A stretch of 64,000 bases of DNA, taken from the NCBI GenBank assembly GCA_036872755.1, contig JAVHNS010000005.1, positions 2,108,001 to 2,172,000 on the forward strand. The letters run 5' to 3'. Numbering within the stretch: the stretch's first letter is position 1; every line of letters begins with the position of its first letter. The stretch is from Orbilia blumenaviensis (taxonomy: Eukaryota > Ascomycota > Orbiliomycetes > Orbiliales > Orbiliaceae). Positions 13,169-50,118 of this stretch are shown piece after piece. The position numbers and the translations under genes were made by a program. The notes under the pieces were generated by a model that worked only from the letters and a program-made list of their open reading frames with translations, was not told the origin of the DNA and ran no database searches.

Positions 13169-13417
13169 TTAATAGCTCTCACCTGTGCATTGTTCTTGGA
13201 ATGATGTCGAAATCCTGCGTCTAGATTTTGGTAGATAATAGAAACCATTGTGGAATTTAAACAATTCCATACAACGGAAAATAAGACCTGTAGCTTCCCT
13301 GGGCGTGAGGTTACCAAAGTATGGTCCTATGCCTATAGCTCTAAGATCATCTATGTCAAATCCCAATTCTTCCATCATGGTATTGCCCGGAATATCTTCC
13401 CTTCGTATGGTATCCAT
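13169..13417 (-). CDS. Small hypothetical protein (uncertain)
   Basis: The frame has 82 codons from an ATG. It has a balanced composition with an acidic N-terminal half and a basic C-terminal half (YYLPKSRRR). A GTGAGA donor-like site falls close to its stop, so the gene may continue in another exon that I could not place. It lacks the MPRC start of the neighbouring array. It could be a chance frame. Confidence 0.3.
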   Translation of the reverse strand: MDTIRREDIPGNTMMEELGFDIDDLRAIGIGPYFGNLTPREATGLIFRCMELFKFHNGFYYLPKSRRRISTSFQEQCTGESY

Positions 13418-14471
13418 GATTGACCTGAATTTTGACTTTGGAGGTTTTGAGTAAATTTAAAGATTGTTTGATTTGGTGAATAATTTAGTTATCGTCGTAG
13501 TAGCAGCTACGCAGGAGTCTAGTATAGTATTAGTAGATGCTATGATTAACATGTACTTAGTGTTTAAGTAAATACCTAGACGCTTCAGTGGCTTTTTGGA
13601 GGGTGTATATTCTTTGAACCGAGTTGATAGGGAAACCGTTACCTCAGCCTAAGAAGGGGGTATTTCAGTTGCTTATATATATTTTTAGGGGATATTTTAT
13701 ATACGCTAAAAACTTGTCTCGTAGACCAGACCAGTAGTAGCCCAAAAATGTTTATTTAAATTATTTGATCAACAGGCCAGCCATGATTTCCCTACACCAG
13801 CCTACACACTTAGGTAGATTCGTAGATATATATAGATTTGGATTTTCATTGAGCTGTACCACGTGCTTTTCGACGATCCTACGTATAATTTAAAAGTTAT
13901 ATATCCCTCCACTTTGGTTACTTGGGCAGCCCGTAGATGCGCTCTATAATACAACTTGGGCCATACCTGTAGGGACCTAGGTGTATGTCTAAGTAGCTAT
14001 TTGGCGGTGTGTAACATATCATATTCGAAGACCACAAATTTATAGCTATAGAAGAGTAGGTTTGTACGGATCAGCAATGATAGAGGGTAATTCAGGGTGA
14101 AATATTTCCCATTCGTAAGTGAGAACATTTCGAAATTTCCCATAGTGCTATACCACGTATTGGAATCTATTTATGGCTATTAATCTGGGAGACTTTTTGT
14201 TAACATGTTGCATACGTACACAAATGCCATGGGCCCGTAGACTGACCTCCACAAGATGGATCCGTCAGTTGAAGCAGCCCTGCGTATGTTGGAAGATATT
14301 CCCTTCTGCGGCGGAACATCCCAGTAGATCAGCACTAGGGCCATAGTCATATCATAATAAGGCATGCATCCAATAATAGTTCAGAAAATAATGCATATAA
14401 TTGATACAGCTAACCTTATAGTAAAATAATATTAAATATGACACTCAGATAACTCCTGCCGAGTTCAAGGC
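13418..14471. other. AT-rich intergenic region
   Basis: About 1 kb of AT-rich sequence borders the MPRC array. A 61-codon minus frame at 14180-14365 begins MPYYD; it is too short and divergent to call a family copy. No other structure is seen. Confidence 0.4.
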
Positions 14472-14831
14472 TCAAAACACTATACAATACAAAAATTCAT
14501 TAAACTCGGGCTCCAATTCCCATCCGTCTATGACCAAAACACTAATTCCGAAGGGTCCTTCTGTCTCAAGTTCTTCTTCTCGGGTATATGTGCCAGTATG
14601 ATCAATCCCCGTCGCCTTCCAGAGCCTATTTTGTATCTTCAATGATAGCTTGCGCTTACGAAGAATGATGGCCCTTTGTTGAAGTCTCAATTTCCGGAGA
14701 GGTTTTAAAAGGGGTTCTCGTTCGAACATATGAGGAGGAAGATTCCAGTTTATCTCAGTGCTGAGTTGGGAAATATGGCAATTAATACGGTATTCGAGGT
14801 CCTCGGCGTTGACTTTCATGCATCGAGGCAT
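14472..14831 (-). CDS. MPRC-family small protein, copy 1 (divergent)
   Basis: The intronless frame has 119 codons. The N-terminus MPRCMKVNAEDL matches the family start box, with an acidic residue and a leucine or isoleucine at positions 11-12. The middle is strongly basic (LRKLRLQQRAIILRKRKLSL). The family box G-[SA]-E-I is not visible, and the C-terminus (VLVIDGWELEPEF) differs from the other copies. This is either a distant member or one whose 3' end was replaced. Function is unknown and there is no signal peptide. Confidence 0.55.
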   Translation of the reverse strand: MPRCMKVNAEDLEYRINCHISQLSTEINWNLPPHMFEREPLLKPLRKLRLQQRAIILRKRKLSLKIQNRLWKATGIDHTGTYTREEELETEGPFGISVLVIDGWELEPEFNEFLYCIVF

Positions 14832-15465
14832 TATAAAATGTGCACTATTTTCGATTTGCGTTGAAGGCGTTGGAATGGGGGAGTAACTTGGCCTGGCTGT
14901 TTCGCATTAGATTCGGCCTCTCCGTGTGTTCTTGAGCCTTCATGAGCGTGACAGTACCTATAGGGTTTAACCAGAGAAGGATCTAAAGCTTCAAAGGTAG
15001 GTATTCTCCCAGGTGGAATTCTATTTGATGAATTTTGCTTGGCTTTGTTTGAGATCCTATACCGCCTATCGATTCTGGGGGTTATCTGTATGAGGGTGTT
15101 AATTTGAAGCTCAGCCTGCAGTTGGATCTACTTATATGTTGCCTGAGCTGAGGTACCCAACATTGAAGGTGCGTAAATGTCAAGCCAAGTCACACCAAGT
15201 CATTTGGTGCCAATCAATCCCTACTACACATATGCACAAACAAAGGCCAATAAAACCAGCTGAATACTATAAAATCAAATTATATGCTATGCCTAGGATA
15301 ATTCATTCTTCATTTCATCGACTTAATTCATCTCGGGCTGGGCTTAAAATACGTATATACAGCGAGATATAAATTTAAACCGTAGTTGGAATTTATATGC
15401 ATATATATGTACACTACTAATGTCTACCAATTCATTGGCAACAAAGTGATGCAGCGAATTTTAAA
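14832..15465. other. Spacer between MPRC copies 1 and 2
   Basis: The spacer is 634 bp. It presumably holds the promoter of copy 1 and the 3' end of copy 2. No degenerate copy is recognised. Confidence 0.4.
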
Positions 15466-15786
15466 TCAGAATTTAAATCCATCAACAGACAAAAGGTCAT
15501 CTATATACTCAAGCGCAGCAGCATCTAAGTTTTGGATGTCCCTCCTCGAATACCTCATAATCTCTGACCCATTATACAATCCCATTTCCCCGATTTCCAT
15601 AAAACTATGGAATGTCATATCCAGAACTTTTGACTTCTGTAAAAGTTCGTTTATTTGCCAATCTAAATCCAGACATTGTGGTTCCGGTGTGTTGCTTAAT
15701 GTTATGATCGCGTGACGGAGAAAAGTGCGGCGGATCATGAAATTTTCGTAGATTTCATCTGCGGAGGCTTTGCAGCAGCGAGGCAT
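15466..15786 (-). CDS. MPRC-family small protein, copy 2
   Basis: The 106-codon frame starts ATGCCTCG. The start box reads MPRCCKASADEI, followed by an Arg-rich helix (MIRRTFLRHAII). The second box is YNGSEIMRY near residue 72. The last residues DDLLSVDGFKF closely match the end of copy 6 (EDLLDVNGFKF), which shows that the family shares both ends although the middle varies. No membrane segment or signal peptide is seen. Function is unknown. Confidence 0.72.
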   Translation of the reverse strand: MPRCCKASADEIYENFMIRRTFLRHAIITLSNTPEPQCLDLDWQINELLQKSKVLDMTFHSFMEIGEMGLYNGSEIMRYSRRDIQNLDAAALEYIDDLLSVDGFKF

Positions 15787-16373
15787 GATAGATTATATGT
15801 TTGAAGATGCGCAAAATAGAATTGATGAATGAATGAAGAGCAATGAATAAATCAGACTTATGAGGCCTGAGCGTAGAGAACTGCTAGGGAGGGTCGAGAC
15901 GTCCAGATATAACACCTCAGCTTGTTTGAGGGTGACATGTGGTGACTTGCGTTTACGACTCGCTTCCGAATTCGTACAACCAAGCTTGTTATATACTATA
16001 TCACTTTACGGCGGTATTTGTATTCCGGTCTGGTGGACTATTGGTATTTTTATCGCATACGTATTATATCGCATTTGGCTCGGTTTTCCTTGGACTTTGG
16101 TGGGATGGCAGGGCTTCGGGGCGCAGCTCGCTGCGGGGTAAATTTTCTTTAAACAACAAAAGTGAAAGTAGTAGATTCGTAGAATTTCACTTTGAGTTTG
16201 TGTCTGGAATTGCAGGATATGGTTGTAAAAGAATAAGGTAGACCAGGTTCTAATTAAATATCATTATGATGCATAAGCCTCATACGGACGTGTACTTAGA
16301 ATCTGCGGGACTGGCGCGTCTAGAAACAAATGTGGCAGCCAAGGGCCGGCTGGCTCTGGTGGTTGCGGGAGAA
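15787..16373. other. Spacer between MPRC copies 2 and 3
   Basis: The spacer is 587 bp. Plus-strand frames at 15860-16241 show no family or domain features and are probably chance. Confidence 0.4.
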
Positions 16374-16742
16374 TCAAGCTCGCGACATGTCCTGTATCTT
16401 GAGTGTATAAACTCCAATTTCTTCCATAATCCGAGGAGAATAAATTAAATCCAACAAAAGTAATAAACCAATGCCACCAGAAGGAGATTGATACTCCATG
16501 ATCTCTGAGCCAAAGAATAGAGCCACGTTGGGCCCGAGCGGGTGACGATAAAGGTCGCCAACTCGTGCTTGCCAACGTATAAATGCAAGGTGCTTTTCCT
16601 TCATTTCTTCGAGCGGGATCAGAGGACGTGGCTCGCCAGGTGCGACCGGCAAATAGTTGGCTTGATAGTAGAGCATTATAACCCTTCGGGCCTCCAAATT
16701 CTGAACAACATTTTGAAGTGAAGCTTTAAAGCAGCGGGGCAT
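16374..16742 (-). CDS. MPRC-family small protein, copy 3
   Basis: The 122-codon frame begins MPRCFKASLQNVV and continues with the conserved double arginine (EARRVIML). The second box is FFGSEIMEY near residue 77. The C-terminus after the box is unusual: a hydrophobic GIGLLLLLDLIY stretch replaces the acidic DLLDV-type tail of copies 2 and 6, perhaps through a frameshift. It lies 80 bp downstream of copy 4. Function is unknown. Confidence 0.7.
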   Translation of the reverse strand: MPRCFKASLQNVVQNLEARRVIMLYYQANYLPVAPGEPRPLIPLEEMKEKHLAFIRWQARVGDLYRHPLGPNVALFFGSEIMEYQSPSGGIGLLLLLDLIYSPRIMEEIGVYTLKIQDMSRA

Positions 16743-16822
16743 TATTGATCTTTATTTGTGGGAATATTCGAAATCGCGAGAGTTGTAGTTGCTTGTCTGG
16801 CTAACTAGATCACGAACGTTCG

Positions 16823-17191
16823 CTAGTGACGTCGATAGTTGGTGTTGCGTGGCAGCTCAAGGCCAGACACATCCGCTAGGTCATACACGCTAGCTATCGG
16901 TATGTCACCATCCCTCATCACCTTCCACGTATATTCCAAAATCTCAGCGCCTATGAATACATCCGCATATGGCGCCGTCTCTACTGACCATAAACTCCAC
17001 CCAGTGTTAAACCCGAATAAAATTCTATTGATTACGCCGCGCCCATAGCACAAGCGATCGGTATCGAGCGTATGCGTATCGCCAACTGTGATTCCACCAC
17101 CGTACGTGGAAAGGGCCCTGGATATGTAGCGCCTCCGATAGCTTAACTTCTGGACGATGCTGTTGGTTTCTGTTTTATAGCAGCGCGGCAT
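16823..17191 (-). CDS. MPRC-family small protein, copy 4
   Basis: The 122-codon frame begins MPRCYKTETNSIV, followed by a basic segment (YRRRYISRAL). The second box is FIGAEILEY near residue 79. The tail YDLADVSGLEL aligns with the DLLDVNGF ending of copy 6 and then extends about ten residues. A TATATA element lies about 75 bp upstream of the ATG on the coding strand. Function is unknown. Confidence 0.72.
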   Translation of the reverse strand: MPRCYKTETNSIVQKLSYRRRYISRALSTYGGGITVGDTHTLDTDRLCYGRGVINRILFGFNTGWSLWSVETAPYADVFIGAEILEYTWKVMRDGDIPIASVYDLADVSGLELPRNTNYRRH

Positions 17192-17870
17192 GATTGACTA
17201 TTTTGTCTGACCTTTGCTTGGTGCAAGTACTTGTTGAGGTTGATATTGGCTTGTATAGCTGTATATAAACGACTGATGGTGCCGAATCGAATCGGTTAAA
17301 GGGAATGTTGATAGGAGAAGTCTGTATTAATATTATTGTTAATATGGGCCGAGGATATGTACTAAAAAGGTTCGATGAGTCCTCATGAAGCCTGTTTTTT
17401 GGTGACGGGATTCCAAAAAGGAACAAGAAGCGTAAAGAGATGGATCCCTCAATGGCTCCGCGCCTTAAAGTTTTTTTTATCACAATGACTGTCAGCCAGG
17501 GTTCCAGGGACTGAGACTACTATCATAGACCTATGTCTACAGGGTGGATCTATCCAATTGTTGTGTTAAGCTGAAGAAATCAGTTCTAGACAGTGTATGC
17601 AATGCTTATGCCTGAGCATATTTGCAGGTGACTGTTTCCACGGACATGGCCAATCATATCATATTAAGAAATTATCGATTATCGTATAAATAATTTAAAG
17701 AAAGTAAATTGACCTTTTTTGAGATGTATCCAAACTAGAAATTCCGCCAGGGGCTTACATCTAGAAATTATATGTCTGGTAGTAACCGGACATTTTCTTA
17801 TTCCAGTCTGTATCGCTACCTTCGATATATCAATTTCTAGCTCAACAGAATTGGCCATCTTGACTAAACA
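17192..17870. other. Spacer between MPRC copies 4 and 5
   Basis: The spacer is 679 bp. It holds the putative promoter of copy 4, including the TATATA stretch near 17263. No further copy is recognised. Confidence 0.4.
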
Positions 17871-18209
17871 TCATGCGCTCCTTGATCCCCAACCCCTGAG
17901 ATATACTTGGTCTTCGACCTCCCGGTCGTTTACCAGGCTCTCGTCCATCCAGCACTCATATTCTAAAATCTCAGCCCCCAAAAATACATTATGTCGCGGG
18001 CGGGGGGTCACAGGCGCCAGGCCTAGGCTACTATCCAGAAGTCGCGATGTTACCGCTTCCATTGCCGAGAACTTGCTGAAAAGGATTTCATAGTCGCTCG
18101 AATCAGTCGCGGCGATAGCAAGCTCGCGTAATGCCCTCTTAATGATAGATCGCCTAAAGCTGACGTTTAAGCCGATGTCGCTGTAAGAGGTTTTGTAACA
18201 CCGCGGCAT
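17871..18209 (-). CDS. MPRC-family small protein, copy 5
   Basis: The 112-codon frame starts at the ATG at 18209; the open frame extends further upstream, but the family start box MPRCYKTSYSDI fixes the start. The basic segment FRRSIIKRALREL and the second box VFLGAEILEY (near residue 80) match copy 4 closely, so copies 4 and 5 are the closest pair by eye. The tail is divergent (EDQVYLRGWG). The gene begins only 68 bp after the stop of copy 6, leaving little room for its own promoter. Confidence 0.72.
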   Translation of the reverse strand: MPRCYKTSYSDIGLNVSFRRSIIKRALRELAIAATDSSDYEILFSKFSAMEAVTSRLLDSSLGLAPVTPRPRHNVFLGAEILEYECWMDESLVNDREVEDQVYLRGWGSRSA

Positions 18210-18277
18210 CGTCTCGGGCCGAGTCGTTGTCCTGATTGCCCACCAACACGATCGATGTTGAAGACTCAGACCAAAAA

Positions 18278-18607
18278 TCAAAACTTGAACCCGTTGACAT
18301 CCAGCAAATCTTCCATATGACCTTCAACTGGTATCTGCTCACTCTCTCCCAGCGACCAAAGCAACGTGTGGCCGCTCAAAATTTCCGATCCAAGAAATAT
18401 ATCGCAAGCACCCCAACGCCTATACCTGTAGGTTTTGGCAAACTGACTGCGTTTCAACTCGAGTCGCGCGTACCCTGCCCACCAGTCTGAATATTTGGAA
18501 CTGTTGGGTGATGGAGTGGCGCTGCCAATGACGTTGAGGGTTACCTCTGAGCGTAGTCTTATGCTAGAGCGGATCTCGGATGTTGGAGCTTTGTAGCAGC
18601 GCGGCAT
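18278..18607 (-). CDS. MPRC-family small protein, copy 6
   Basis: The 109-codon frame starts at the ATG at 18607, chosen because it opens the family box MPRCYKAPTSEI; the frame is open further upstream. The second box is IFLGSEILSG near residue 72 and the protein ends EDLLDVNGFKF, as copy 2 does. The middle is Trp/Tyr/Arg-rich (WWAGYARLELKR). It is the first gene of the array in transcription order. No signal peptide is seen and function is unknown. Confidence 0.72.
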   Translation of the reverse strand: MPRCYKAPTSEIRSSIRLRSEVTLNVIGSATPSPNSSKYSDWWAGYARLELKRSQFAKTYRYRRWGACDIFLGSEILSGHTLLWSLGESEQIPVEGHMEDLLDVNGFKF

Positions 18608-21807: not shown

Positions 21808-24800
21808 CTAGTCGCTGCTCTTCTTGAAAACCTTCTTTAACTTCAACGAGAGCGAAGACCTGTTGCTTGCTGTCGAATGAATCGATGGTGGCCTATGGCT
21901 AACCGGCACCGACGATATAAAGCTAGACATCGGCTGCACCGAGTTCACGACAAAGCTAGTCCCATTGACTGCAGGAGCAGGCACCGGTGCTGCTGTCGGT
22001 GAAACTAGGGGTGCAGGTGTGGGTCTTAGGAAGGGATTTGTCGAGGATTGAGCTGCAGTCGAAGATTGAGCGTTCTGTACTGTGCCAAAGAAGCTACCGC
22101 GGGGCATCGGAGTTGAAACTGATCGCTGAGAAGGGGTTGAGCCTGTAGATGCTGATGATGAAACTGACTTAACAGAGGCGAAACGGTTTACACGTGGCAC
22201 TACCGCTGCAATGGAGCTTGAAGCAGACTCTGTTGTCACATCTGAGCTCGTGGCTGAGAGTGTTGGAGAGGCTGGAGTGGATGGAATAGACGGAGTATAT
22301 GTCTTTTGGGTGGTCGGACGAAGCGGCGGTGAACGAATAGTTGTCGAGGTTGCGGGGACTACGCTGACCTTGGTGGGGGAGGGTGCCTGCGATGACTCGG
22401 CTGTTGAGGATGGGCTTACAGTGGCTGTGGTTTTGGTGAATGAACTGGCATTGTGTGACCATGGTGGCTCAATGGCCTTGATTGCAGGCCGTGAAGGAGC
22501 ACCACGAAGAGACGTTGGGTCGTATTTGTTGGCAAGTCCTCCAGCGCTAGAAGAACTAGCTTCAAGAGTCTCTGAAACTGTAACTCTACGAACTGGGGTT
22601 ACGGTTGTGGCTGCTCACTGTTAGCTTATGGTCGATACCGCCCCATAGGATCCTGGGAAGCTTTTAAAAACTTACTCTTGGTCGGTCCGGCACCAGGAAT
22701 AGCGTCCAAATCAGGCACAATTCTTGCTGCCCAGTCCTTCCTATCCGTGCTGGCGAATTTCTTAATCTATTTATTTGTTAGTTGTACTGAAATAAAAGCC
22801 TACTCAATTATCAGGGGTCCTTACATGCTGGGAAATTTCCGCGCTATAGAGATTTTCATCTTGAGTCCAGTACTTCAGCGTAGCAATAGCATCGACAGGT
22901 TCGTTCCTCTGAACAATATCACGTTAGATACAAATTTTCAAAATTACGGCATGGTGTGAGTCAATTTACTAACCTCTGGTGCCATGAGTAGGCCGTAGAT
23001 GCAACATACGATATCTCGGACCTTCGTCTCCGCCTTCCAGTCTTGATCCAAAATGGCGTGGCAGACGCGGCCATGCTATAGGAAACGTCAGCTCAACACT
23101 CATAATTATTCAATTTCGTCAAGCAACTCGCTTGTATTTAAGGCTAGAATCTCTTACCTTGTTGATATTTGGATGGATGATTGGAGTTATAAACCTGGCC
23201 TGTGGCGCCTTTCTCGGGAAATCGTCCGTCATATCCAAGAACATAACGAAGGTTCCACTAGCATAATTAGACCCTTCGGGGCCCTGCATGACCACCTTCC
23301 AGAACGACATCTCGCTTTCGCTAACGTAGATATCCATGTCCGGATGGGGCTGCTCGGCCATATCTTTAATCTCCAGCAACAAGCGTCGGTTCTTCACAAC
23401 ATCAGAAGCAACACGGACTCCTGTCTTATCAACAACAAGCTGCTTATTCTTGCTAAAGGCCTTATGGGCGTTCGCCAGAGACATGAACTCGTCGTTTTGG
23501 TGTGGGTGATCACGAGCCTCGGGAACGGAGAAAGCGGTAACTGTGAATGGCTCGAGCGGTTGAAGGGCATCGAAGTATGGTAAATACGTCTGCCGAATGA
23601 ATGGTGGCCGCAGAGTTTGGTCTAGCATGGTTTCCATTTCGGCCAGTTGGATGATTTCAGCTGTCGATGCTGGCTTCATGGCGTACCCGCCAGTCGCACC
23701 GCAGATTTTGAACAGAGATTTATGATAATCCGAGCCGATACAGAAAGCATCGAGGACGATGTTGTTGTCCCAGAGGTAGGAATATGTGGTTTTATCTGTT
23801 TGCTTCGAACGGTTGTCGATACCATCTGTAAGAACAATGATACGGAGCTTGGTGTCTGGATTGTCCTCCTTGAAGTCGAGCAGCTGTTCTGCTCCTTCGT
23901 AGATACAATCCCACATAGCTGTCATTCCTGAAGGATTGAGTTTCTCGATTTCCTTTTCAATATCGTCTAGTAACGGTGTGAACTCCTGCATGGTAGAAAC
24001 AGTGGCATTGAATTTCATGACACCGAAGTGAACCGGAAGCTTGTAGTTTGTAGCCGTGCTGGAATAGTGCTTGAACAACATCTTTGCCGCTGTCATTCTG
24101 TTGATCTTTTCTGTATCCTTGAGCTCTTTATCTTCGTCCGTAAACGCAGGATCGAACATACTTGAACTACAATCGACACAGATCATGACAGCTTCTTTTG
24201 GTCTGCGGGTGTCAACTGTGCTGGCATTCAGGCAACCAACGTCCCAGCCATCCAGGGGCCAGGCACCGCTCATTTTACGTGCTTGGATGACGTCTTTTAG
24301 AGTCTTTGCGAGTGCTTGACCTTGGTCATTGGACATGATTTGTTGGACGCCAGCCACTGGATTCCAAATGTTGGCCCACTCCGTAGCGCACTCGCCACCA
24401 AACTCGAATATGGAGACCAAGCCCTCATTGTTAAGCGTCAAGACTGGTGGCTTTGAGCTGGACAAAGACAATGGAGCCACTGTACAGAGTGCGGGCAGAT
24501 TCGTGGTGTTGATGATCTGCTCGTAAAATCCATCCTGGGTTGGGTGGTGAAGAATCCGGTGTTCTAGAACACTTCCTGCATCTTTTGGCATAACGAGATA
24601 GGAGTTACCGTCGAATGAGTACCTATCCCTAAAGCAGAGTACCAACTGCCTCTGATCGGGCTGGTTCTGTGTATTCTTATCCAAAAACTCAACTGTAACC
24701 TTTACAGTTTCCCCGCTCTGCAAGTCAATGTTGGAAATGTTGTTTTCTGTTGTTACTGGATCTCCTTCTCTTCTCTCTGCTACCTTCTTGATGATAGCTT

Positions 24801-25650
24801 TCTTTGTCCATTCTTCCCTTCCAGAACCACCACGCTTGCATGCAATAGCCTGATCGAGCAGCCATCCCAGTAGCTGCCTAGACCCTTCTAGTGCATTTTC
24901 TACCTTGCCTCCAGTAGCCCAGTCAGGTACAGACTTTACACAAAGTGCTTGGAAAGTCTGCACCAGAGCCGCCTTTTCTTCCGGAATGAGCGTCCTACTA
25001 TCGAATAAGCTCGCCAAAGCATATACCGCCGGCAGAAAATGCGTCGTCTGCCAGACTGATGTCAGGAATCTGCGTTGGGTAGGACCATCTGTAACTTTCC
25101 GCTTGAGCATTTCAAGCGAAGCACAAAACGCAGATATTCCCGCTCTTGTCACACCTTCTACAGGATGCCAGGCGTTGGAATTACTGGTCGAACGAAGGTC
25201 TGCGAAGTGCTTTGTGGGTATTCCGATTGTTCCATTGTATCGTAGAACCACGAATAGGTTCAGCGGCGCCCTTGGGGTTCCGACAAGGTCAAGGTCATAG
25301 AGCGTTAGATCGTCAGTCAAAATTGGATGTGCTTGTAGATGTAGGTCAACAACGTATGGCTCATTTAGAGATTTCTGGAAAACCTTCTTCTTTACAATAT
25401 CTTTCAGAGTTGAGATTTTGGTTGATAGATGAATTGGGTCCTTCGAAACTGGTAGTCCGGATAACTTCGGTTCGAGGGCATTTTCTGGAGTTATGAAACG
25501 GATATGAATACTACCAGATGGCGACTTATTCTGACGGGTGGCACCTGGTGTAAGTGTAGCTTGTGAGCCCCCCCATTCGCTAGAAGTTTGCTGACTTGCT
25601 GACGACGAGATCGAGAGCGTGCGGATCAAACTTGCCCGTGGGGACGACAT
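21808..25650 (-). CDS. von Willebrand A domain and ubiquitin-conjugating (E2) domain fusion protein
   Basis: Five exons on the minus strand (25650-23158, 23075-22974, 22908-22825, 22766-22676, 22610-21808) give 1190 codons plus stop. Residues about 45-140 look like a ubiquitin-type beta-grasp region. Residues about 487-680 are a vWA domain with an intact MIDAS motif (D493, S495 and S497 in VDCSSSM, T577 in SGMTAMWD, D609 in LTDGID). Residues about 755-890 are a UBC fold. HPNINKHGRVCHAIL spans the exon 1/exon 2 junction and places a cysteine (C836) at the E2 active-site position, followed by a conserved tryptophan (DQDWKAET). The last about 270 residues are Ser/Thr/Pro-rich and disordered, ending in a basic KLKKVFKKSS. 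It is probably a cytosolic ubiquitin-pathway protein. The vWA/E2 pairing is known in fungi; its substrates are not. Confidence 0.9.
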
Positions 25651-47398: not shown

Positions 47399-48638
47399 TC
47401 AGCCTTCTATTCCAACAGGGAGCTTAATTCCGTCGTCTATAACCTTAAACAATTGCGCAAAATTCACTCTGTATGCCCATATGAATATCTGGAGATCAAT
47501 CACTTGTTGCCTCACAAAATTGATATTCTCTTTGACCTGCAATACTCGTTCCAGGTTCCGAAGCCATCTTCCAAGACGCTGGTCCATAGAGTCAAATGTC
47601 TTCACCATAGCTTCAAATGCATTTCTGATGTCATCTTTCGCTTTTGTGTTATAATTGACTAGTACCCGACCTTCAATGTCTGTAGTCAGCGAGTTGGCTT
47701 TATAAAGCCAAAAAGATATTGCCTTGGGGTCTGTCAATGGCACTTGGTCGTGAACTGCCTTGTATAAATTGATAACAGCGACAAATATCTCTGTTTTGAA
47801 TAGATGGCCGGTTCTTTCGCCCCAGATATCTGTCTTTAGTTCCACTGGGCTGTTGATAATTTGGTCTATTAAAACCTCAAATTCGCGATACACCGACCCC
47901 TGCCTCCCCTCGATCTTATCGAATAATTTTTTCTCGAGAATACTATCATCAAGTACTTCTGAGATTAGATTATGACTTCTTTGCGTCACTCCAAATATCG
48001 GCCCTTCAGAATCTAAAGCTTGGTTCAATGCCCGATCTAAAGCTTCTTCGGACGGAACATAAGCATGCGGCATCGGGATTTTGTAGCTCCCTTCGAAGTC
48101 AGATGCTACACTCTTGTCGGTGAACATCCTTATAGAGTCTCCTAATGTCACAAATTCGTTTGCCTCGCTGTCTAGGACATTAGCTTCATCCATTCCTTCT
48201 TCGGCTTTGCGTAATTCGCGCATGCCATCGATGATTTCGATGTTCAAGGTTGCTAAGTCCTTCGGTTTATTCTTTGTAAGTCCTTCGTCGATCTGTTTCA
48301 CGGAAGTATGAAGTGGGTGTGTTTTCTCAATCTTTTTGATAAGATCAATGAGGCTCCCTCCGAGTCCTTTTAAATACCAGGCTGGGCTGTTTTTGTAGTC
48401 TAACCAGTAGCCATTGTTGATCGGCTGTAGGGAATCCAGCCACTTCTGCCATCTTGCGAGTGTAACCGTGCCTTTGTAGCCATTTCTTTATGCATATACG
48501 TTAGTCGATAGGCTTTTGATGTCTCTTGGAAAGGCTTGGAAGTTTTCTCTAACTCGAATTTACGTACACTTCGATTATGACCATCCCCCACAACCACAAC
48601 ACTATTCCATTCCATTTATCGGTGCCTCTTAACCTCAT
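47399..48638 (-). CDS. Predicted secreted protein (secreted block member 3, paralogue of member 4)
   Basis: Two exons on the minus strand, 48638-48568 and 48485-47399, give 385 codons plus stop. The 82-nt intron has donor GTACGT, branch-like GACTAAC and acceptor AAAG, in phase 2 within a Val codon. Exon 1 (MRLRGTDKWNGIVLWLWGM and a few residues more) resembles a signal peptide or signal anchor. Exon 2 starts NGYKG. The C-terminal third aligns with member 4: PLTDPKAISFW, VLVNYNT and IRNAFEAM match DLTDPIAVAMW, VVISYNT and LRAAFKSV. The mature part is helical and cysteine-poor, and no domain is recognised. The gene stands head to head with member 4. Confidence 0.7.
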
Positions 48639-48986: not shown

Positions 48987-50118
48987 ATGAAGTTCCGAGC
49001 GGTGGTCCAGTGCCTGGCAGTTGGGCTTTCGGTATTCCCTATTACTTTTGTGTAAGCCTTTCACCCTTCTTTTCACTTAATGGACTTTCTTCAATGCGCC
49101 TTCATTTGGTGCACGGACTCAGGTATTTCCGTCGTTATAGACGGAAAGATTCGGAGAGAATTTGAAAGCAGCTACTTCTGCTGCACTAGGCATAAGGGCT
49201 AATATCCCATGATTACTGGGGCAGAAATGCATTTCAGGGATACATGACTATCGAAAACTTTGAAGCCTGGGTCCATGACAACGAAGAAGCATTCTTGATT
49301 GTCGGCGAGGACCTTAGATGGTTAATTTACCTCGCCAATATAGACAGGCCATTAAGTAACAATCCGGGCCCAGATGCCGAGGTTACGAGGTCTTTGTCTA
49401 GAACTCTGCAAGATGTCACCAATGTATTTGAAAACCTTCAGGCACGAGTGAACGTAAGTTGTACTAATCGTCTTTACCCACACTCTTTCCCTCGGGCCTA
49501 AACAGTGTACTCGGATTAATAACTATATATTTATACCCATCGAAGCAACGAGCTGACGATTTATTTTCGCAAACTCAGGAAGGAGGCCTAACTACCCCGC
49601 CGGAGCGCGACGGCTCACCAGATATGTTTTTCGAGAGGGAGTTGATGAATCTGAAGAGTATGATGGACGACTTTAAAATCAACCTTCGTCGGAATGTCTG
49701 GGAAAACCGAGTAGTCGATGAACTAATAGAGCAGATTACCCCAATCGACGCTACGAGGGAACTCGTTCAGCGGCTAGAACATAATGGACTTGACTTAACT
49801 GACCCTATTGCGGTTGCAATGTGGGCTCTCGATGCTCAAGATGTTACGGATCAGCAAATTTCGGATACCGTGGTTATCTCGTACAATACCAACTCTCTCA
49901 AGAGACTGAGGGCAGCGTTTAAGTCCGTCCATGACGGGTACAAAGCGATTGCTGAGGTCATAAATAGAGTTTACACTGCTGCCATAGATCGGTATCCTAA
50001 TCCTCTAGATCGAGATCTTGTCTTTGCGATTGAAACGCCACTGAGGCGGTTTCAGAACCTCATCTTTAGTTATCAAGGGGTGTTTTCGGACAAGATCTCG
50101 GGAAAAAAGTCAGCCTAG
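48987..50118 (+). CDS. Predicted secreted protein (secreted block member 4, paralogue of member 3)
   Basis: Three exons, 48987-49051, 49225-49453 and 49579-50118, give 277 codons plus stop. Intron 1 (173 nt, donor GTAAGC, acceptor GCAG) is in phase 2 within a Val codon, at the same place as in member 3; intron 2 has GTAAGT and TCAG. Exon 1 encodes a typical signal peptide (MKFRAVVQCLAVGLSVFPIT then FVNA), with likely cleavage before FQGY. The mature protein is about 255 residues, acidic to neutral and helical. The segment LTDPIAVAMW with VVISYNT and LRAAFK is shared with member 3. No known domain is seen. The combination of small size, signal peptide, local paralogue and no homology I recognise is effector-like, which is an inference. 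Confidence 0.75.

Follow-up and report, generated by a model that had tools for sequence, protein, structure and literature searches.

Most species-specific genes of nematode-trapping fungi are orphans (71-76% in two species), and many of the transcripts most upregulated in the infection of one such fungus encode species-specific small secreted proteins, as described in PMC3828140. These orphan proteins are short and lineage-specific, and have neither homologues nor Pfam domains. Here, we analyse a comparable locus in a 64-kb stretch of DNA (the window, C5:2108001-2172000) of the 42.46-Mb, 23-contig genome of Orbilia blumenaviensis TWF730 (Orbiliomycetes, Orbiliaceae). Between positions 14472 and 18607, the window carries six minus-strand intronless open reading frames (ORFs) of 106-122 codons, all opening with MPRCxK (Table 1). 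Their products share the traits listed above, but the orphans of PMC3828140 are secreted, with 12 conserved cysteines in the largest of their clusters, whereas the proteins encoded here have one to three cysteines and no signal-peptide core. Judging from their sequences, the six ORFs are real protein-coding genes of an undescribed family, probably unannotated. Our working model, to which we give a probability of about 35%, is that they encode intracellular adaptors or assembly subunits with a docking arm, in which a constant N-terminal module precedes a variable helical-hairpin body.

Table 1. Members of the MPRCxK family in the O. blumenaviensis genome. Positions of genes 1 to 6 are those of the window, with the ATG at the higher coordinate; the gap is counted from the stop of the preceding gene; E values are from leave-one-out profile searches with the whole sequence and with the first six residues removed.
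Member	Position (strand)	Length (aa)	Gap (nt)	Sequence features	E, whole / first six residues removed	Remark
gene 1	18278..18607 (-)	109		MPRCYK...IFLGSEIL...EDLLDVNGFKF	6e-9 / 0.004	
gene 2	17871..18209 (-)	112	68	MPRCYK...VFLGAEILEY	1.4e-12 / 4e-6	
gene 3	16823..17191 (-)	122	679	MPRCYK...VFIGAEILEY...DLADVSGLEL	1.8e-11 / 1.7e-6	nearest to A. megalospora P0006 (42%)
gene 4	16374..16742 (-)	122	80	MPRCFK...LFFGSEIMEY	6e-7 / 0.27	without DxxxVxG tail
gene 5	15466..15786 (-)	106	587	MPRCCK...LYNGSEIMRY...DDLLSVDGFKF	9.5e-11 / 3e-6	
gene 6	14472..14831 (-)	119	634	MPRCMK	1 / no match	without GSEI box
L006	C1:2976073	77		C-terminus ILWVR		short form, A-type
L020	C20	82				short form
L021	C20	73				short form
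L022	C20	92				short form, B-type

The cluster and its kinship

MPRC starts are found on the two strands of the 64 kb in these six ORFs alone, when 0.025 MPRCxK sites are expected per window (mean of 40 Markov-1 sequences), and a frame of at least 106 codons starts at 110 of 23,669 random ATGs (0.46%). A second box of the FxGSEI type ([FY]xG[SA]EI[LM]) has five sites in the window, every one of them inside a cluster ORF (five of the six genes). The ORFs, this box and the twin tails of genes 1 and 5 had been reported in a preliminary description of the DNA, and all were recovered; the tail group can be extended to gene 3 and to DQADVSGLKL in P0006 (TWF281_008979), a protein of Arthrobotrys megalospora. 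Read by eye, the DxxxVxG tail is clear in genes 1, 3, 5 and P0006, partial in gene 2 (DQVYLRGW), and absent in genes 4 and 6. Genes 1-2 and 3-4 form tight pairs, since they are separated by only 68 and 80 nt.

The preliminary description also called the cluster a six-gene family, which holds for genes 1 to 5 but, for gene 6, only at the start. We scored each gene with a hidden Markov model (HMM) of the others plus P0006, scaling E values to 5000 sequences, and found that genes 1 to 5 recognise one another. Gene 4 is weak in this analysis once the first six residues are removed but strong against P0006 when compared with shuffled sequences (z 8.1). Other pairs, also deprived of the first six residues, gave z of 17.8 (gene 3 and P0006), 11.3 (genes 3 and 2), 8.1 (genes 1 and 3) and 5.9 (genes 5 and 1). 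It is thus established that five cluster genes and P0006, which is full-length with the start, a GAEI box and the tail, form one family (up to 42% identity), although P0006 is the one such annotated protein found. Beyond MPRCxK, no similarity of gene 6 to the others was detected, either in the HMM or in pairwise comparisons (no z above 3), so that, as far as its sequence tells, it is a family member through its start and position alone. Its residues 10-12 (E-D-L) are compatible with the helix pattern described below.

Conservation is very uneven along the proteins. The mean pairwise identity of genes 1-5 and P0006 (gene 6 being left out) is 0.90 at residues 1-6, 0.26 at residues 7-25, 0.13 at residues 26-75, then 0.41 in the region of the GSEI box and 0.28 over the tail. 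The identity of the cluster copies to gene 3 is 15-31%, which points to old rather than recent copies; the amplification is modest.

Several observations bear on whether these ORFs are genes or debris. The frames are kept open in another species, which is established, and antisense or chance ORFs are ruled out by the invariant start, the odds of such ORF lengths and the same-frame relatives elsewhere in Orbiliaceae. A transposon, or a product of repeat-induced point mutation (RIP), is ruled out because 4.7 kb of cluster DNA match only themselves in the genome (E up to 0.001) and because RIP thresholds are passed in none of the cluster's 10 windows, compared with 15 of the 118 windows elsewhere. 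A mild RIP-like signal (composite index 0.05) is seen in the flank at 13400-14470. PMC3828140 reports RIP to be active in a related species. The concern in the preliminary description, that a profile search might reveal antisense shadows or transposon fragments, is therefore answered by the same-frame protein relatives and the self-only DNA match.

Short forms, relatives and rates of divergence

A search of the genome for MPRCxK gave 19 matches, compared with 6 in the reversed control. Using no criteria but the hexapeptide and ORF length, we retained 10: the six genes of the window and four others opening 73-92 codons. The remainder were eight matches with ORFs of at most 55 codons and one that does not encode the motif. 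Among those left out, an ORF of 16 codons with I12 and F16 could be a remnant of the family. Three of the four short forms lie within 40 kb (98,727 to 138,364) of the 264,560-base contig C20, and all four have a hydrophobic-Trp-hydrophobic C-terminus (ILWVR, QLWLV, EIWVL, QIWIV). L020 and L022 resemble each other (z 4.6 against shuffles). When the start is included, the cluster profile matches L022 (E 9e-5), L020 (0.003), L021 (0.02) and L006 (2.7) in a small set of sequences. The profile needs the start to make these matches, and the short forms are therefore tied to the cluster through the N-terminal module. Short and long forms would descend from a common ancestor.

Other candidates were rejected. 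Searches of the genome with single proteins gave no further copies save one weak match to gene 2 on contig C4 (29% identity, E 0.029), which was set aside, as it is absent from the family-profile matches at E up to 10. The variant MPRCxR gave 19 pattern matches and 26 in the reversed control; nine encode MPRCxR and none is family-like on translation. Further GSEI boxes were sought with a pattern that excludes the box of gene 5 (26 matches, 13 in the control): four are cluster genes, and in-frame reading by eye showed that none of the remaining 22 belongs to the family. An intron after the Trp of the short forms, leading to a hidden GSEI exon, was ruled out over 700 bases at each of the four, because an in-frame stop follows the Trp by 2-3 codons and the A-type protein ends at the same site in three other species (P0007-P0009). 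The idea that C20 is a dispensable chromosome is unsupported: in the 30 of 265 kb covered, the flanks carry ordinary genes (UbiA prenyltransferase, glycerol-3-phosphate acyltransferase). Two of the three members on C20 are followed on the same strand by a 2EXR-like gene, at about 0.35 kb (L069 5510-5893) and 2.25 kb (L070 1843-2835). Both genes score below the Pfam cut-off for 2EXR, the L069 gene scores above that for DUF7730, and the arrangement is possibly due to chance.

Two profile searches for relatives each retrieved 13 proteins, out of 544 and 588 candidates, respectively, which amount to 14 distinct proteins (P0001 is only in the first list and P0014 only in the second). All 12 with an organism name are from Orbilia or Arthrobotrys, both Orbiliaceae (P0002 and P0003 have no such name), and a search with the A-type alone gave seven candidates that all match and are all from Orbiliaceae. 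Viral contigs searched with gene 2 (23 pattern matches) and bacterial and archaeal genomes searched with one narrow B-type pattern (13 matches) contained no relative. This distribution in the searched data is established and, within the reach of the databases, the family would be restricted to Orbiliaceae. It also appears undescribed in the searched literature, as we found no description of an MPRCxK family in titles and abstract openings among the matches listed.

Apart from P0006, two types of relatives can be distinguished. A-type proteins (TWF506_007579, i.e., P0007, and its relatives P0005 and P0008-P0013) are small and carry the MPRCxK start of cluster proteins (here MPRCHK), and P0007 has no Pfam domain, but they have 77 residues in P0007-P0009, end in ILWVR, lack a GSEI box, and have a body that the cluster profile does not match. 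One copy was found in the genome of O. blumenaviensis (L006). B-type proteins (P0001, P0003, P0004, P0014 and L022) share with the cluster an MPRC[HY]K start, similar residues 7-16 and a predicted helical hairpin, but have 92-103 residues, end in IW[LI][VI] (except P0014, whose end is different), and have no GSEI box. The types are conserved to different degrees. A-type proteins are 84-92% identical across four species, and between O. blumenaviensis and A. megalospora the identity is 69/77 (90%) for the A-type, 59/92 (64%) for the B-type, and at best 47/111 (42%) for the cluster form. By sequence comparison, such fast divergence would fit diversifying selection and relaxed constraint equally well.

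Gene prediction apparently misses most of the family. P0005 (TWF730_000842) is from the genome analysed here, and its first 77 residues are exactly those of L006, followed by an annotated C-terminal extension. The window's six proteins and L020, L021 and L022 are absent from the protein lists of relatives, i.e., nine of the ten members are apparently unannotated. The A-type is annotated with several different C-terminal ends (P0005, P0010, P0011, P0012, P0013), and two of these proteins, P0011 and P0013, both from O. oligospora, agree over 20 residues and differ in the rest. These variant ends are probably errors of the gene models.

The constant N-terminal module and its codons

Beyond the hexapeptide used to select them, the ten members agree at several positions. 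Residue 7 is A, T, L or V in all ten and residue 8 is S, T, P or N in eight. Residue 11 is D or E in eight (p 6e-6; exceptions, genes 3 and 4), residue 12 is I, L or V in nine (p 2e-5; exception, the A-type) and residue 16 is hydrophobic in all (p 5e-5), these p values being too small because the six cluster genes are kin. When counted by lineage (cluster, A, B, C and L020), the pair D/E-I/L/V is present in four of five (p 7e-6). The pattern S/T-x-x-E/D is the classic N-cap box of helices. Because residues 7-16 agree with it, and because the first helix in the model of gene 3 begins at residue 9, the constant module is best described, from sequence and model together, as a PRCxK arm leading into a capped amphipathic helix, with a total of about 16 residues; this anatomy we regard as established.

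The codons indicate what is conserved. In the ten genes there are four codons for Pro2, three for Arg3 and two for Cys4, and this synonymous variation implies that it is the peptide that is conserved (the lack of replacements in the hexapeptide partly results from selection, since the pattern itself required those residues). Lys6 is AAA in all ten genes, when AAG was also allowed and the remaining lysines are evenly divided (17 AAA, 17 AAG; p 0.001). Arg3 is always encoded by CGN, compared with 47 of 78 arginines elsewhere in these genes (p 0.006). Position -3 is A in nine of ten, and upstream 7-mers common to the members are no more numerous than in shuffled sequences.

Predicted fold and possible roles

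AlphaFold models the protein of gene 3, aligned with six relatives, with helices at residues 9-31 and 38-62, and residues 65-122 have a predicted local distance difference test (pLDDT) below 50. The B-type protein P0004, with five relatives including L020, is modelled with helices at 3-39, 48-76 and 79-97. Neither model had a match with E below 0.001 in a Foldseek search of the PDB, a search that is uninformative for low-confidence hairpins, and by sequence the best PDB match had an E of 1. No Pfam family was matched by the six cluster genes at E up to 10, and P0004, P0002 and P0006 had sub-threshold matches only. By hydropathy, the six cluster proteins have no transmembrane segment (maximal 19-residue mean 1.29) and no signal-peptide core (8-residue maxima between 0.28 and 1.41 over residues 1-32). 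The hypervariable middle behind a fixed start, the lack of signal peptide, membrane segment and known domain, and the lineage-specific and locally clustered distribution were all part of the preliminary description, and these results uphold them.

In the architecture that we propose, the constant PRCxK and its capped amphipathic helix would be followed by a hairpin free to drift in sequence. The four short forms would stop at the hydrophobic-Trp-hydrophobic C-terminus, and the long clustered forms would run on, through the [FY]-x-G-[SA]-E-I box in five of six and, as in P0006, into a D-x-x-x-V-x-G-hydrophobic tail in three of six. The initiator Met is presumably lost before Pro, so that the mature protein would open with PRCxK. 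The arm and first helix may then dock on a single constant cellular partner or surface, with the divergent hairpin and tail supplying contacts specific to each paralogue, and old tandem duplication would have given rise to the cluster. On this view, the proteins would act inside the cell as adaptors or assembly subunits rather than as secreted effectors, and the intracellular location is supported by the lack of a hydrophobic export segment in the six proteins.

Several points weigh against this model. The confidence of the structures is low (mean pLDDT of 51.6 for gene 3 and 67.9 for P0004), and the docking role is proposed from sequence conservation. The link between short and long forms is thin outside the start, as the best pairs between them are two at only z 3.3, among 91 pairs tested in all, and the cluster profile without the start matches none of the four short-form bodies. 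The body of gene 6 may be unrelated to the family. No partner gene is common to all loci in the flanks examined. Finally, the invariant AAA at Lys6 makes some constraint on the RNA possible.

Two alternatives survive best, each of them unlikely. The first is a family involved in conflict or recognition, whose body would be under diversifying selection for self/non-self discrimination or against a genomic parasite, and whose fixed start would couple it to a common output. This would account for the local clustering, for the drop in identity from 0.90 at the start to 0.13 in the middle, and for the faster divergence of the cluster form than of the A- and B-types in the same pair of species. Yet relaxed constraint accounts for the same pattern, and no HET, NLR or toxin domain was found at E up to 0.01 in ten scanned ORFs of the window (57 listed) or in nine ORFs near other members. 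A purely fast-evolving conflict family also fits poorly with an A-type so conserved across four species and with scattered short forms whose bodies escape the cluster profile. The second alternative, about as doubtful, is that these are peripheral membrane proteins, in which Cys4, between Arg3 and Lys6, would be S-acylated and the first amphipathic helix held on the membrane. A Cys close to basic residues near the N-terminus is a common setting for acylation, the three residues are present in all ten members (by selection of the pattern), MPRCxR variants are no commoner than in the control, and the amphipathic helix follows directly, but Pro2 is left without a role.

Effectors acting on nematode prey, either secreted or translocated by an unconventional route, are improbable: the infection transcripts mentioned above speak for the idea, but their products are secreted proteins in PMC3828140, whereas the six described here lack a signal-peptide core and nothing points to their export. 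Least probable, and already contradicted, is that the ORFs are non-functional (chance or antisense frames, or transposon debris), as suggested by their absence from the protein lists and by the mildly RIP-like flank, since a relative is in the same frame in another species, the start is invariant while synonymous codons change freely, and the cluster DNA matches itself only and has no RIP windows.

Elsewhere in the window, the neighbouring hypothetical genes at 47399-48301 (-) and 49624-50118 (+) share a similar stretch of 63 residues (18/63 identical, E 1e-7 in a single comparison), and are a further example of a local family; no Pfam domain (E up to 0.01) is present in the first. In an 843-aa ORF at 23119-25650 (-), a von Willebrand A domain and a ubiquitin-conjugating enzyme domain are combined.

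Returning to the docking model, a more speculative extension, slightly less probable than either of the two surviving alternatives, is that carnivorous fungi use PRCxK and the capped helix as an N-terminal address that has gone unrecognised. It would be read by a single constant receptor or surface inside the cell, and behind it would stand many helical bodies, unrelated or fast-changing, so that the proteins would be interchangeable adaptors and the cluster their fastest-diverging branch. The finding of an Orbiliaceae family with a fixed six-residue start means that a single pattern (ATGCCNMGNTGYNNNAAR) can find members in any genome of the group. Because one form is conserved and the cluster form diverges fast, the role of the family is open to testing by simple gene removal.

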